A stretch of DNA of 64,000 nt from Melioribacter sp. Its GTDB lineage: Bacteria; Bacteroidota; Ignavibacteria; Ignavibacteriales; Melioribacteraceae. This document shows, one piece after another, positions 1-51,118 of this stretch. The notes beneath the pieces were generated by a model, which had not been told where the DNA came from, did not search any database, and worked only from the letters and a program-made list of their open reading frames with translations. Location of the stretch: the NCBI GenBank assembly GCA_003155655.1, contig PMDS01000128.1:1-64000 (forward strand). Direction: 5' to 3'. Every line of letters starts with the position of its first letter. Position 1 is the stretch's first letter. The position numbers and the translations under genes are program-made.

Positions 1-51
1 CGATGTTATGCTATTTATGAACTAAGTACTAAATACTATTTACTAAAAGAA

Positions 52-1407
52 TCATTTCGTTTTGTAAGTTTTCAATAAATATTCAGCAACTACTTGAGCT
101 TCATTTTGCTTGAGTCCCTGGCTGGGCATGGAAGGATAATCCGGATTTTTCTTAACCGGGTTCATTATAAATGCAACAAGATCATTAATCTTGCCTTCAT
201 ATTTCGGTAAGGTTTGTTTGTATGGCGGACCAACTACCTTATGGTCAAAACTATGGCAAGCAATACATCTGCCGTTATAAATATCTGCACCGTTTATTGG
301 TGCGGTAGTTCCTGTGGCTTCTTCAAATTTCTTTATGTATTCGTCATATTGCCCGGCAAGAATTTCGGAATGCATTTTAGCAGAGGTCTCAAATGCAAAT
401 TGGTCTTTTATAACAATCAAAGCAAAAGCGGCAATTACAAGATAAATTACCGGCTGGCTGTATTTAATATTAGATTCCTTAATCATAAAGTAAAAAAGGA
501 AGCTTGTCAGAAACAAAACAATAAGAATTAACAGTATTGAACCAAAGAAGCTGAAAGAAAGAGAATTAACCGGTTGTGTAAATACAGATAATATTATTAA
601 TATTGAAAATAAGATGATTGAGACAAGTCCCAATCTTAGCGAAAATGTTTTTACAAACGATATGTAATCTTCATCCCTGTTTGCAGATTCTTCATCCTGT
701 CTAAGTAACCTAAAGATAATAAATGCAGAGGTAATTACTGCCGAACCTATAATAAATTGAATGAAACCTATTAAAGTAGATGATGAAAAAATTATTCCTA
801 AAAGATTGTTACCGTCTTCCCATCTTGTAGAATCTGATGCGAACTCAACTGAACCTATTACAATATAAATAGAGAACAAAAGCAGCAGCAATCCATAAAA
901 GCCGGTTTTGTTATTCAATAAAGCTGTCTTCTGTGAATAAGTTGAAATTTCATGTTTGATTTCATTGTCAGATTCGTTTCCATCTTTTTTTGCATCTGCA
1001 TACTTAAAAATATCTTTCAGATGAAAAGTGTATTTATATGTGTATATAAAAAGCAATGCTCCCGCTAATATTACAAATGAGATTAAGAGGAAACCCGGAA
1101 CGCCCGAATTGCTTGAGTGCAGGAGCTGCGAATAACCAAAAATTGAGCTTAATATCGGAATAAGAGCAAATCCAAAAGAGATACTTTTATTAATTGTTGC
1201 AAGATCAATTAAATCTTTAGAAAAAATTGTATAAATGCCGGAGCCTGTTTTTTGCCCTTTTCTTCTAAAATACAATGAAAATGAAAGTGTCCCCACCAAT
1301 ACACTTACATAAGGGATGAAAATGGTAAAAGAGAGAGACAACAAATACCTTATAAGCTGTAAATGCTGTGGTGATTGAGGTAAAACAGATTGATCTAGCA
1401 AATCCAT
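52..1407 (-). CDS. Polytopic membrane protein with C-terminal cytochrome c domain
   Basis: The 451-residue product has about eight hydrophobic segments in its first 340 residues and then an extracytoplasmic monohaem cytochrome c domain. The haem site is CIACH at 381-385, and a likely axial Met lies in YPSMPS (Met427). The N-terminal membrane part is not a family I recognise. The gene is the last of the oxidase operon, 20 bp after ctaB. A role as an electron donor to, or accessory of, the haem-copper oxidase is therefore a reasonable inference. This matters because the CtaC encoded nearby has no cytochrome c tail of its own. The haem domain is certain; the role is not. Confidence 0.8.
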   Translation of the reverse strand: MDLLDQSVLPQSPQHLQLIRYLLSLSFTIFIPYVSVLVGTLSFSLYFRRKGQKTGSGIYTIFSKDLIDLATINKSISFGFALIPILSSIFGYSQLLHSSNSGVPGFLLISFVILAGALLFIYTYKYTFHLKDIFKYADAKKDGNESDNEIKHEISTYSQKTALLNNKTGFYGLLLLLFSIYIVIGSVEFASDSTRWEDGNNLLGIIFSSSTLIGFIQFIIGSAVITSAFIIFRLLRQDEESANRDEDYISFVKTFSLRLGLVSIILFSILIILSVFTQPVNSLSFSFFGSILLILIVLFLTSFLFYFMIKESNIKYSQPVIYLVIAAFALIVIKDQFAFETSAKMHSEILAGQYDEYIKKFEEATGTTAPINGADIYNGRCIACHSFDHKVVGPPYKQTLPKYEGKINDLVAFIMNPVKKNPDYPSMPSQGLKQNEAQVVAEYLLKTYKTK

Positions 1408-45190: not shown

Positions 45191-47473
45191 ATGAAAAAGT
45201 TACTTTTTTTTACAATAATACTTACTTCAGTTCTTTCTATGAATTTAACAGCCCATACTGAAAGCACAGCATCGGTAACAGGGATGGACAAGTATGTTAC
45301 CCTTCACTTGCCAGCCGCATATAATAATGAATATGTATATTGCGGATCATTAGTTGGCACGGCAGATGGTAAAGATGTAAAACTTTATTGTATTGATCTT
45401 ACGCACAATCTTCCATGGAATACTGCATACCAGGATCAAGGACCAACAATTTCGACAATTACTTATATTCTAAACAATTTCTACCCTTACAAAGTTTTCC
45501 CTTATGCAAATTCATTATCTGATGTAAATCAGGAAGCAGCAGCGATTCAACTGGCAATATGGAATCAATCAGATAACCTTGATGTTACAACAGTGAGTAT
45601 TGATGGCGGTTCAACAGTTGATGCGGCAATTAAGGCAAGAGCCCAGGCAATTATAGCTGAAACTTTATTAAAAGCCGGTAATATTCAGCCTTTCAATACA
45701 TTACAGATTAATTTTACTTCCCAATCATTCACAGTTGGCACTCCTGCAACATTTACTGTTGAAACCTATAATGAATTAGGTATTCCTATTCCTAATGCCC
45801 AGATTACACTATCAGTAAATGAAGGTACGTTATCATCATACACAACAACTACAAATAATTCCGGAGTCAGCCCCGTTCTAACTTTAACAGCAGGGCCACA
45901 TAACAATACAACTATTACTGCAACGGCAAATTGTATAATACCAGCCGGAATACAATACTGGACTGTTGTAAACCCAGGTTCAAATCAAAAATTAGTTATT
46001 GCAGCACCGGTAACGGCTTCAAAAACAATAACTGCTAATTGTGTCTGGATGAACCAGGTAAATCTTTCAATTTCAAAAACATGTGCAACCTTAACAGTAA
46101 ATAACGGCGATCAGGTTCAGTATAAAATATCAGTCACCAATACCGGCAACGTAGCAGCAACGGGAATACAGATATCCGACGTCATGCCGGCGATCCTTGA
46201 TTTTGTATCTACCGATGGCACATACAGCTCCACTACCCATATCTGGACTGTTGGAAACTTAGGAGTTGGAGAAACAAAGACATTAACAATTAATGCAAAA
46301 GCGGATTTTACAGCTCCGACGGCGTCTTACTTTGATCTTGGTTCAGCATCTGATTACAACACGTTTGTATTAACAAATCTGAATCAGCCTTCTTCTGATA
46401 CCGAAGGAAAACTGGCTGTAGGTAACAATGCTGTTCTTGCAAATTATAGTGTCGGAGATAAATTACCGGCTAATAGCGGGAATGTTTTGGTAGTTGGAAG
46501 AAAGCTAACATTTGCAAGCGGCAGAGTTTATAACGGCGACATAGCCTACGGATCATTCATCGATACTTCGATCTGCAATTCAGCCGATGGAAAAATTAAA
46601 AAGGCATCTCCAATCGATTTCACTGCTGCCTCATTATATTTGAATACATTATCACAGCAACTCTCGGTTCTTATTCCGAACGGAACTGTTACATATCAAT
46701 ACGGACACCTTGCCTTAACCGGAGCCAACACGTCACAGAATAAATTTTTAGTAAATGGTTCTGATATGAGCACCTGCAACGATTTCACGATTGACGCTCC
46801 TGCCGGTTCAGTAGTCATAATAAATGTAAGCGGAACCACAGTATCGTGGACAGGCGGAATGGAATTGACCGGGGTTAAGAATGAAAATATAATTTTCAAC
46901 TTTTACGAAGCTAAGACACTTACAATACACGGCATAGCGCTTTACGGATCAGTTCTTGCCCCGCTGGCGACTTTAAATTTCAGCGCAGGTACGATCTACG
47001 GTCAGACAATAGTAAACAATTGCAGCGGTTCGGGACAATTCAACTGGATTCAATTCCAAGGGAAAGTAACAATCGGACAGACAATAACAAACACTGCAAC
47101 TTTAGTACATGTTGATCAACCTCTAGGTTCTCCAGTTCAATACGCATATGCCCAGGTAAAAAGCTCATACAAGTTAACTGATGTACAGAACAGCAACAGC
47201 ACAATACCTACCACATTTGAACTATCGCAGAATTATCCAAATCCATTTAATCCTTCAACTATAATAGAGTTCGCAGTACCGCAGACAGGAAATTATTCAT
47301 TGAAAGTTTACAACGTTATCGGTCAAGAAGTTGTCAATCTGCTCGATAAGGAATTGCCAACAGGCACATACAAAGTAACGTTTAATGCAAGCAAACTTTC
47401 CAGCGGAATGTATATTTATAGATTAAGCGGAAGCAATATCAACATGAGCAAAAAAATGATTTTGATGAAATAA
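45191..47473 (+). CDS. T9SS-exported thioester adhesin
   Basis: The 760-residue protein has a signal peptide (1-21) and then a thioester-type domain (about 32-165). The candidate reactive pair is Cys67 in KLYCIDLTHNLPW and Gln120 in AAIQLAIWNQ, matching the YCID...QxAIW layout of Gram-positive TQXA adhesin domains. After an Ig-like part (about 170-265) come a DUF11-like domain (288-372), a choice-of-anchor A/collagen-binding-like region (about 380-628) and a T9SS type A sorting domain (676-760, with NYPNPFNPST). It may bond covalently to a host or surface amine. The thioester itself is inferred. Confidence 0.85.
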   Translation: MKKLLFFTIILTSVLSMNLTAHTESTASVTGMDKYVTLHLPAAYNNEYVYCGSLVGTADGKDVKLYCIDLTHNLPWNTAYQDQGPTISTITYILNNFYPYKVFPYANSLSDVNQEAAAIQLAIWNQSDNLDVTTVSIDGGSTVDAAIKARAQAIIAETLLKAGNIQPFNTLQINFTSQSFTVGTPATFTVETYNELGIPIPNAQITLSVNEGTLSSYTTTTNNSGVSPVLTLTAGPHNNTTITATANCIIPAGIQYWTVVNPGSNQKLVIAAPVTASKTITANCVWMNQVNLSISKTCATLTVNNGDQVQYKISVTNTGNVAATGIQISDVMPAILDFVSTDGTYSSTTHIWTVGNLGVGETKTLTINAKADFTAPTASYFDLGSASDYNTFVLTNLNQPSSDTEGKLAVGNNAVLANYSVGDKLPANSGNVLVVGRKLTFASGRVYNGDIAYGSFIDTSICNSADGKIKKASPIDFTAASLYLNTLSQQLSVLIPNGTVTYQYGHLALTGANTSQNKFLVNGSDMSTCNDFTIDAPAGSVVIINVSGTTVSWTGGMELTGVKNENIIFNFYEAKTLTIHGIALYGSVLAPLATLNFSAGTIYGQTIVNNCSGSGQFNWIQFQGKVTIGQTITNTATLVHVDQPLGSPVQYAYAQVKSSYKLTDVQNSNSTIPTTFELSQNYPNPFNPSTIIEFAVPQTGNYSLKVYNVIGQEVVNLLDKELPTGTYKVTFNASKLSSGMYIYRLSGSNINMSKKMILMK

Positions 47474-47504: not shown

Positions 47505-47528
47505 TCCCGGTCACAAGCCGGGATTTTT
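47505..47528 (+). terminator. Terminator of the adhesin gene
   Basis: TCCCGG/CCGGGA stem with loop TCACAAG and an ATTTTT tail stands 31 bp after the stop. Confidence 0.85.
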
Positions 47529-48859: not shown

Positions 48860-48899
48860 TTAATTCCGTCAATGAATGGTCTTTGAAGGCTGGGATAAA
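48860..48899. repeat. Dispersed palindrome, copy at the 3' end of the TOPRIM gene
   Basis: TTAATTCCGTCAATGAATGG then TCTTTGAAGGCTGGGATAAA. It has several changes from copy 1 and includes the stop codon and last codons of the TOPRIM gene. It matches the copy at 51670 best (AATGAATGGT), with TTCGACAnTGAAT in front of both. Confidence 0.75.
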
Positions 48900-49780
48900 T
48901 ACGAATATTTTAATCTGATTTTATTAAATAATCTGTTATTTTTTAAATTTTCTCTTGATACACAGAGTTGTAATGTTCTTCCCAATTGTTCTTCTGAATG
49001 ACATAAATTATTATCAATTTTTTTTATAAAAAGGTAAAGAACTTTAATAAAATCATGTCCTCTTATTTCTAATCTTGGATCACTTGGAGAGATATTAAGG
49101 AATCTATAAATGGTTTCTTTGAATCCAAATTTATTTTCTATAAAATAATTTGCGTTAAATATTTTGTCTAAATATTCTTTATCATTAAATATAATTTGAC
49201 CTGAAGCAATATCAATTGTAAGGCTTCTTCTAATATCAACTATTTCAGGTTCTAAATATTTTGGGTTTGGCAAATTGTAAAGTTCATATCTAAGGATAAA
49301 TAAAAATCTTAAAATAGGCACTAATGAAGCTAGAAGATTCTCACTATTAACAGAATATTTATGAAACATAATTTTTAACAAACGATCTAGACATTCTTTA
49401 TTAAAAAAATACAATTCTAAAGAATTATAATCTGTGTAGAATAAATAACTATTCCATATAGATACTTTTTCTAAACTATTAAAATCTAAATCTGCTATAC
49501 AAATTACAAATCCTAATTGATTATTAAATTTTTCAAACAATTGTATTGATAATTCAATTATTTTATCATGGTTATTACATCGTAAATAAGGTTTTTCAGG
49601 ATATAATTCATTGAAATCAATTTGATTAATTTCGATAAATCTAACTTCGTGATTACCATTATAATATTCAGAATAAAAAGCAAAATCATCAGCACCTTCA
49701 ACATATATATCTTCCAAAAAAGGCTCTAATGAATACATAGTAATTACTTCATAAAGATATCTTCTTTCTATAAAATTCAT
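48869..49780 (-). CDS. DUF4435/TOPRIM-like protein, AriB-like of a PARIS-type pair
   Basis: The 303-residue protein shows TOPRIM marks: Glu28 in DIYVEGADD, Asp97 and Asp99 in ICIADLDFNSLE, and Glu122 in TDYNSLELYFF. The last is typical of DUF4435 (AriB). In the PARIS anti-phage system AriB is a nuclease held by the ATPase AriA and released on phage infection. Its ATG follows the ATPase stop with no gap (TAAATG). The final ~10 codons and stop are supplied by a dispersed palindrome copy. Homology to PARIS is by motif and order only. Confidence 0.75.
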   Translation of the reverse strand: MNFIERRYLYEVITMYSLEPFLEDIYVEGADDFAFYSEYYNGNHEVRFIEINQIDFNELYPEKPYLRCNNHDKIIELSIQLFEKFNNQLGFVICIADLDFNSLEKVSIWNSYLFYTDYNSLELYFFNKECLDRLLKIMFHKYSVNSENLLASLVPILRFLFILRYELYNLPNPKYLEPEIVDIRRSLTIDIASGQIIFNDKEYLDKIFNANYFIENKFGFKETIYRFLNISPSDPRLEIRGHDFIKVLYLFIKKIDNNLCHSEEQLGRTLQLCVSRENLKNNRLFNKIRLKYSYLSQPSKTIH

Positions 49781-51118
49781 TTAAAATTTTTTGCTATTGA
49801 CTAATTTTATTACATTATCTCTATTACTGGCTAATAATTCAATAGAATGGGTTGCTATTATAAAATGAATATTTCTTGATTTACTTAGGAATAGAAGAGA
49901 ACTAAGTAATTTTCTTTGCCATTTTATATTTAATGAAAGTTCTGGCTCATCTATAATAAAGAACGTAGCTTGGTTACTGGCCAATATAGAACAACAAAAT
50001 AATAGTATTATTTGTTTTTCACCTGATGATAAAGAAGAGAATGGGATATTTTTTTCTGTATGGTTTTGAGTTACTTTGAAACCACTTTGTAATTCAAAGC
50101 TTAATAATTTATTTGTTAAGAAAGAATTAGTAATATTAATAAATGAAGTTAAAGTTTCTTGTAAATCACTTTGTGCATCTAACTTTGCTTTAATTCCTTT
50201 AATAAATGGTTCTAGAATATTATAAATAATCTCTTTTTTTTGATCATTTTGTATGTTAAAAGCTTTACTTAGTTGTTCATATTCAGACCTTGTTATCAAA
50301 CCCACTTTTTCATATGCTTTTGATCTTACACTAATATCTAAAATTAATTCCTGTATAGCTTTAATTTTTTCTTCTATTTTTTCTATCTTTTCCGGTCCTG
50401 GTATAATTATATTGTTAACTATATCCAAATAGATAGTATTTGTTTTATTTTCGCCATAATTGGAAGCTTTTAAAGCTTGTTCTTTTATCCAATCTTCGAA
50501 AATTTTAATTGTATTTTCCAAAATATCTTTTTCAGCAATATTTGTCCTTTTACGAAATTTAAGTTCGTTTTCAAATAGTAATTTAGTAGTGCTAAGTGCA
50601 TTAATTAGATCAGATTCACTTGTACTTGGCTGATCGATTGTTTTCATTTGTTTTCTTGAATCAGAAAGGAAAAATATCTCAATATTCAAAGATTTTATAA
50701 ATTTCAATAATTCATGAAATTTCTTCCCTTCTTCAGTACTATCAGAAACATTAATTGCATTATCATTATTCTCATCAGCTTGAAGGAAAATATTATATTT
50801 TTCTACATTATCTTCTAACAGATAATAATTATAAGAACCAATTATATCATTTAATCTCGAAGCACCAATTGTTACATTGTTGCTTAAAGTAATATCTATT
50901 TTCTTAAAAGAAATTCTAGCTAGACCTGATTTATGTCCAGCTTTATCTGCACTTGAAAGCAAAAAAAGAATAGATTTTAAAATAGTAGTTTTACCAGATC
51001 CATTATCTCCATATAAGATTAACATTTTATTATTTTCTATTTTTGTCATATCAAAGGTATAATCATAATATCCGAACAGGTCTCTAATTTCAATTCTTTT
51101 AATACCAATATTATCCAT
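49781..51118 (-). CDS. ABC-type ATPase, AriA-like of a PARIS-type pair
   Basis: The 445-residue ATPase has Walker A GDNGSGKTT at 37-45, a signature LSSGEKQ at 363-369, Walker B IIDEPELSL with Asp390/Glu391, and a switch His at 424 (ATHSIELL). An insertion of about 200 residues between the halves is coiled-coil rich. The SMC/OLD-like architecture and partner DUF4435 gene match AriA-AriB. It would sense infection and hold the nuclease. RecF- or Septu-type ATPases are alternatives, but their partners differ. Confidence 0.8.
   Translation of the reverse strand: MDNIGIKRIEIRDLFGYYDYTFDMTKIENNKMLILYGDNGSGKTTILKSILFLLSSADKAGHKSGLARISFKKIDITLSNNVTIGASRLNDIIGSYNYYLLEDNVEKYNIFLQADENNDNAINVSDSTEEGKKFHELLKFIKSLNIEIFFLSDSRKQMKTIDQPSTSESDLINALSTTKLLFENELKFRKRTNIAEKDILENTIKIFEDWIKEQALKASNYGENKTNTIYLDIVNNIIIPGPEKIEKIEEKIKAIQELILDISVRSKAYEKVGLITRSEYEQLSKAFNIQNDQKKEIIYNILEPFIKGIKAKLDAQSDLQETLTSFINITNSFLTNKLLSFELQSGFKVTQNHTEKNIPFSSLSSGEKQIILLFCCSILASNQATFFIIDEPELSLNIKWQRKLLSSLLFLSKSRNIHFIIATHSIELLASNRDNVIKLVNSKKF

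Follow-up and report, generated by a model that had tools for sequence, protein, structure and literature searches.

Thioester domains (TEDs), TIE proteins, the CLIPPER domains of Gram-negative bacteria, and T9SS adhesins are each already known. The founding survey of TEDs obtained PSI-BLAST matches exclusively from Gram-positive bacteria (PMC4450167). In characterised TEDs, the bond-forming glutamine lies in a late beta-strand, and the glutamine of the helical TQXXPhiW motif is dispensable for the thioester and hydrogen-bonds the backbone of the cysteine (PMC4450167, PMC6194298). In class II TEDs, a beta-sandwich is inserted after the third helix and before the strand that bears this bond-forming residue (PMC6194298). 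One class II TED is needed for contact between bacterial cells in pLS20 conjugation; in this adhesin a C68-Q256 bond has been modelled, and the C68S substitution inactivates it (PMC8092201). The solved CLIPPER domain has a Lys715/Asp748/Asn806 triad within a CnaA-like fold (PDB 9IFR, PMC12617251). PorU removes the tail of T9SS cargo and, in a reaction that resembles that of a sortase, can attach the cargo to A-LPS (PMC10202324). Can a TED also travel on T9SS? In the literature that we searched, with subscription journals mostly outside it, we found no paper naming TEDs in T9SS cargo or in Ignavibacteria, nor any family of TEDs that typifies a Gram-negative order.

We analysed a 64,000-nucleotide stretch of a Melioribacter sp. 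contig (PMDS01000128.1), hereafter the window. We consider it likely that positions 45191-47473 (plus strand) encode a T9SS-exported surface adhesin that is built like a Gram-positive TIE protein and would act covalently through a thioester between C67 and Q266. The ORF is intact, starts with ATG, and encodes 760 amino acids. The original prediction for this DNA had described the same ORF, with C67 in a YCID motif and Q120 in AIQLAIW, and we found all of these where it had placed them. It had also listed DUF11, choice-of-anchor A, and T9SS type A regions, which all scored above the curated Pfam cut-offs. The TED match (PF08341, residues 65-156) lies above its cut-off of 22 bits, while the narrow NCBIfam TQXA model reached 15.8 bits on the 760-aa protein, below its cut-off of 30.4.

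Table 1. Features of the TED-T9SS gene and its product (positions are those of the window)
Feature	Residues	Position	Strand	Basis
Sec signal peptide, N-terminal, MKKLLFFTIILTSVLSMNLTA	1 to ~21	45191..45253	+	By eye: K-rich start, hydrophobic core
Thioester domain	25-292	45263..46066	+	Pfam TED 35.7 bits; AlphaFold2 pLDDT 93.2; best PDB matches class II TEDs 6fwy, 6fwv
Cys67, predicted thioester cysteine, motif YCID	67	45389..45391	+	Invariant (80/80); sole Cys of the domain in 20/80
Gln120, helical TQXXPhiW motif, not the predicted bond-former	120	45548..45550	+	In model helix 88-104; PMC4450167, PMC6194298
Inserted beta-sandwich, invasin/intimin Big_1-like, class II hallmark	~169-253	45695..45949	+	VIA-align, PDB profile matches
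Gln266, predicted thioester glutamine, motif NQKLVIA	266	45986..45988	+	Invariant (80/80); motif shared with the pLS20 TIE adhesin (Gln256, SYQRLMS)
DUF11/CLIPPER isopeptide-type Ig domain, first part, with K296 and D330	291-378	46061..46324	+	Pfam DUF11 at 292-375, 75 bits
Choice-of-anchor A/pAdhesive_15, ice-binding-protein beta-helix, nested in CLIPPER in the model	383-618	46337..47044	+	Pfam pAdhesive_15 190 bits; NCBIfam choice_anch_A 182 bits; VIA Z 19.0 to FfIBP
DUF11/CLIPPER last strands, TITNTATLV	626-645	47066..47125	+	9ifr structural alignment
N634, predicted isopeptide partner of K296	634	47090-47092	+	61/62 homologues
Type A T9SS C-terminal sorting domain	682-757	47234..47461	+	Pfam Por_Secre_tail 41 bits; NCBIfam T9SS type A tail (TIGR04183) 40 bits
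Intrinsic-terminator-like hairpin (CCCGG...CCGGG, then TTTTT), 3' of the stop		47506..47528	+	By eye

The original prediction had ended the thioester domain at residue 170 and had proposed a structural comparison with TED folds. The domain reaches approximately residue 292, and we ran the comparison on an AlphaFold2 model of residues 25-292 built with 80 sequences. Foldseek returned class II TEDs as the best PDB matches, EfmTIE86 (6fwy, E 2.7e-12) and BaTIE (6fwv, E 2.2e-9). VIA-align gave Z scores of 17.2 to 6fwv (model residues 1..264) and 15.2 to 6fwy (1..265) over 240-244 residues, with rmsd values of 8.7-9.4, which may mean that head and sandwich meet at another angle in the model; class I TEDs came next (Z ~12). 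Invasin/intimin Ig domains matched the insert, with Z scores of 11.6-12.4 over ~92 residues. When the family profile was compared with the PDB, intimin and invasin again matched the Ig insert and class I TEDs matched weakly (E 0.06-0.08); phmmer of the whole 760-aa protein against the PDB gave no match.

The architecture of the model is that of class II. Helices 64-72, 88-104, and 117-137 form a three-helix bundle, no helix lies between strand 56-61 and alpha1 (alpha0 is absent, as in class II), and a beta-sandwich stands between alpha3 and the Gln266 strand, as class II requires. The class II motif of [YFL]C followed by a hydrophobic and a hydrophilic residue is present as YCID. The TQXXPhiW motif appears as AIQLAIW, with Ile for Thr and with Gln and Trp in 80/80 homologues. 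The weak PhiQzPhiPhi motif corresponds to N-Q266-K-L-V, in which the first position is not hydrophobic and is often Tyr in homologues. Identity to Gram-positive TEDs was 12-16% in structural comparisons. Profile and modelled fold together support residues 25-292 as a genuine member of the TED family.

Which residues would make the thioester? Because the fold matches class II TEDs, including the beta-sandwich insert, the bond-forming glutamine is predicted to be Q266 and not Q120, and the predicted pair is C67-Q266. Both residues were invariant in the 80 aligned homologues, in which mean column identity was 47% and most positions vary, and neither was in the search patterns that gathered these sequences. 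Q266 is the sole invariant Gln other than Q120; it follows the Ig-like insert in a QKLV(L/I)A motif. In the pLS20 adhesin, Q256 sits in a QRLM motif at a spacing of 188 from C68, compared with QKLV and a spacing of 199 here. When hhalign compared the family with the pLS20 domain by itself, the alignment covered no more than the YCID stretch and was not significant, so the equivalence of Q266 and Q256 rests on motif, spacing, and fold. The original prediction had paired C67 with Q120. Q120 is indeed invariant in the 80 homologues, though it formed part of one of the two search patterns, and its helix packs against the cysteine in known TEDs. However, the Gln of TQXXPhiW is not needed in those TEDs (PMC4450167, PMC6194298), and the pLS20 partner is the equivalent of Q266; we therefore regard a C67-Q120 bond as very improbable.

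One could also argue that the fold is a relic, kept for binding after the thioester was lost, and the large divergence from Gram-positive TEDs would fit such a history. We consider this improbable, although somewhat less so than a bond to Q120: the Cys and the Gln are unchanged against the variable background described above, and domains with a single Cys are common. In 20/80 homologues the domain has no Cys besides C67, and we therefore rejected an intradomain disulfide involving C67. The other cysteines of the window TED are conserved in 1 to 4% of homologues. Only the window protein and one paralogue (C50) have both C51 (45341-45343) and C248 (45932-45934), which may form a disulfide of recent origin close to the thioester site.

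Behind the TED, the Pfam match to DUF11 covers only profile positions 2-85 of 114. Residues 286-643 were conserved as a unit in homologues carrying the stalk, with K296 in 62/62, D330 in 92%, and N634 in 61/62, the exception being a gap in a truncated sequence. The K-D spacing is 34 residues versus 33 in the solved CLIPPER, and the D330-N634 spacing of 304 equals 58 plus an insert of ~246. In a model of residues 286-655 (pLDDT 91.7), CLIPPER 9ifr aligned with model residues 2..358 (102 residues, rmsd 2.3 A, Z 11.9), spanning both ends of the insert, while model residues 94-336 matched ice-binding proteins with Z scores of 17-19 (for FfIBP, 195 residues at rmsd 2.6). Because the second match lies within the span of the first, the ice-binding-like beta-helix is, in this model, nested in the CLIPPER domain, where it splits the K296/D330/N634 triad. 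The conserved residues predict an isopeptide bond between K296 and N634. An isopeptide-type domain behind the TED is a mark of TIE proteins. The original prediction had called the choice-of-anchor A region collagen-binding-like; the family assignment was borne out, but the fold is that of an ice-binding protein. Domain insertion in isopeptide folds is already known from RrgA and Spy0125; a report of nesting in CLIPPER was not found in the literature searched, with most subscription papers outside it.

The LPXTG sortase anchor of TIE proteins is absent, and the C terminus is a T9SS type A tail. The genome encodes a PorU-like protein (909 bits) and SprA (1020 bits in all), together with 99 T9SS tails of type A. 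A type A C-terminal domain in a genome with the T9SS core marks the protein as predicted T9SS type A cargo, and the tail in a Gram-negative setting proposed originally was confirmed. The gene appears to be monocistronic. Its neighbours are encoded on the opposite strand. PIN and GNAT proteins flank it on one side; the other flank has a 168-aa protein that matches no Pfam family and, beyond it, a DUF4435/ATPase pair. We found no conserved neighbour of the gene. At 48869-51118 (minus strand), the DUF4435 protein (303 aa) lies beside the ABC-type ATPase (445 aa); PADLOC scored them as AriB (38.7 bits) and AriA (83.6 bits), and they are likely a PARIS anti-phage defence pair.

Is this gene an isolated case? 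A PF08341 search detected three TED genes in its own genome and none in 14 control genomes, which speaks against a chance match. Of 395 sampled genomes from the phylum, 33 contained TEDs, and 31 of these 33 came from Ignavibacteriales. The original prediction had suggested an HMM search; our whole-domain profile matched 98/164 Ignavibacteriales genomes (74/109 among good ones), at least about five of the 98 matching only in the Ig-like insert. A scan of genome contigs with the single protein as query gave no match, a query alignment of the TED alone gave 79 loci, and tblastn against plasmids gave one weak match. Named relatives include Ignavibacteriaceae, Melioribacteraceae, Melioribacter, Ignavibacterium, and Stygiobacter (including strain Stygiobacter electus 09-Me), and their sources were largely groundwater, hot-spring, lake, fen, and other environmental samples. 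By motif, 62/64 complete named homologues have a clear T9SS tail; of the two exceptions, homologue L152 failed the motif test, yet its C-terminal end is T9SS-like, and L125 (see below) has no tail. Among 31 full-length homologues that we scanned, all had the TED and the T9SS tail, 29 had pAdhesive_15, and 28 had DUF11.

These data show that the pairing of TED and T9SS put forward by the original prediction is real and widespread in Ignavibacteriales, and that the TED-T9SS family is a lineage trait of this order. Since TEDs had been described only from Gram-positive bacteria (PMC4450167), we weighed whether the contig might be Gram-positive and mis-binned, or the fusion recent and accidental. 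The contig, however, also carries ribosomal protein L20 and tRNA synthetases near the gene, the T9SS tail is in frame, and the 98 matching genomes of the order include that of Stygiobacter electus 09-Me. The distribution refutes this explanation, to which we assign almost no weight.

Several variants of the protein were observed. The same genome encodes a 1692-aa paralogue (L034, 3429-8507 of G000:C31) with SdrD_B, DUF7507, and DUF11 stalk repeats, and a 756-aa paralogue (L035, 5964-8234 of G000:C50) that is 75% identical to the window protein. L062 (7020-10856) is permuted, with an ice-binding-like domain, then the TED, and then the T9SS tail; it keeps the Cys and the late Gln (SQTLI). L129 (7854-9344) and L149 (7914-9332) are minimal forms of 470-500 aa without the nested beta-helix, consisting of a signal peptide, the TED, a short linker domain, and the T9SS tail. 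In another family of the phylum, L073 (7803-8468) is a short TED-like protein with a borderline Pfam score and a PEP-CTERM tail, which may represent a second Gram-negative sorting route for TED-like domains. L125 (4129-5796), filed as Anaerolineae (Chloroflexota), carries a close relative of the TED, but in place of the T9SS tail it has a GEVED domain and, at the C terminus, a transmembrane segment; either transfer or mis-binning may account for it.

How might the adhesin work? First, the class II TED would fold and form the internal C67-Q266 thioester, buried between the head and the beta-sandwich insert. Second, a K296-N634 isopeptide bond, assisted by D330, would clamp the DUF11/CLIPPER domain, with the ice-binding-like beta-helix sitting before its last strands. 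Third, the type A tail would direct export by T9SS, for which the machinery genes are present, and the PorU-like sortase would cleave the tail and may join the new C terminus to a surface glycolipid. Fourth, by analogy with known TEDs, an amine of the target would attack the thioester on contact and end up bonded to Q266, so that cell envelope and target would be covalently connected. The beta-helix may provide a first, reversible contact.

The original prediction had named host amines as the target, which is doubtful given that the named relatives are largely environmental. Because of these sources, and because the pLS20 TED works between bacteria, the probable target is an amine carried by a nearby cell or by matrix; the likeliest would be a lysine, either in a surface protein of another cell or in biofilm matrix. 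The main alternative is that the thioester forms but serves self-assembly, linking the protein to further copies of itself, to different proteins on its own cell's surface, or to siblings in a cross-linked sheath or biofilm, and not foreign attachment. The lineage is free-living, the genome has three paralogues, and the class II TED of pLS20 is required for cell-cell contact (PMC8092201), all of which would suit such a role; against it, no partner was identified, and the gene appears monocistronic with no conserved neighbour found. We regard self-assembly as possible but clearly the less probable reading, and retain attachment to foreign amines as the preferred one.

Whether this free-living Gram-negative order builds fully covalent T9SS adhesion chains, from thioester through isopeptide-clamped nested beta-helix to a PorU-made envelope linkage, is in our judgment evenly balanced. 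If so, the Gram-positive TED/isopeptide/sortase design would have been rebuilt with Gram-negative export. Here a Gram-negative order for which no host is known conserves a TED on a protein predicted to be exported by T9SS, a system whose PorU step is sortase-like, and the predicted self-made reactive bond could permanently glue cells to amine-bearing targets. Should the bonds form, covalent adhesion would be independent of pathogenesis and of LPXTG anchoring, and survival of a reactive thioester through the periplasm, where amines might consume it before export, would become a testable question. The nested isopeptide/beta-helix module would be new and a source of protein-ligation parts.

Compared with known systems, the protein shares with other T9SS type A cargo (PF18962/TIGR04183) its tail family, its signal peptide, and a genome with PorU, SprA, and 99 tails; it differs in its predicted reactive thioester domain, of which we found no mention for T9SS cargo in the literature searched. 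With choice-of-anchor A/pAdhesive_15 proteins and DUF3494-like ice-binding beta-helices it shares fold and family, but here the beta-helix is nested in a modelled isopeptide domain and attached to a TED, and ice binding is not implied. With the CLIPPER (DUF11) domains of Gram-negative fibrillar adhesins (9IFR, PMC12617251) it shares the fold and, minus the insert, the spacing of the Lys/Asp/Asn triad, whereas a whole beta-helix domain lies between D330 and N634. The Gram-positive class II TIE adhesins (BaTIE, EfmTIE86, SaTIE, and pLS20 TIE) likewise have an N-terminal class II TED with a beta-sandwich insert, a YC(I/V)D cysteine, a late-strand Gln, isopeptide-type domains behind, and a signal peptide in front. 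In contrast to them, the protein described here has a T9SS type A tail in place of LPXTG and sortase, an invasin Big_1-like insert, a CLIPPER stalk (plus SdrD_B in long paralogues) in place of CnaB, an ice-binding-like domain, and a free-living Gram-negative host.
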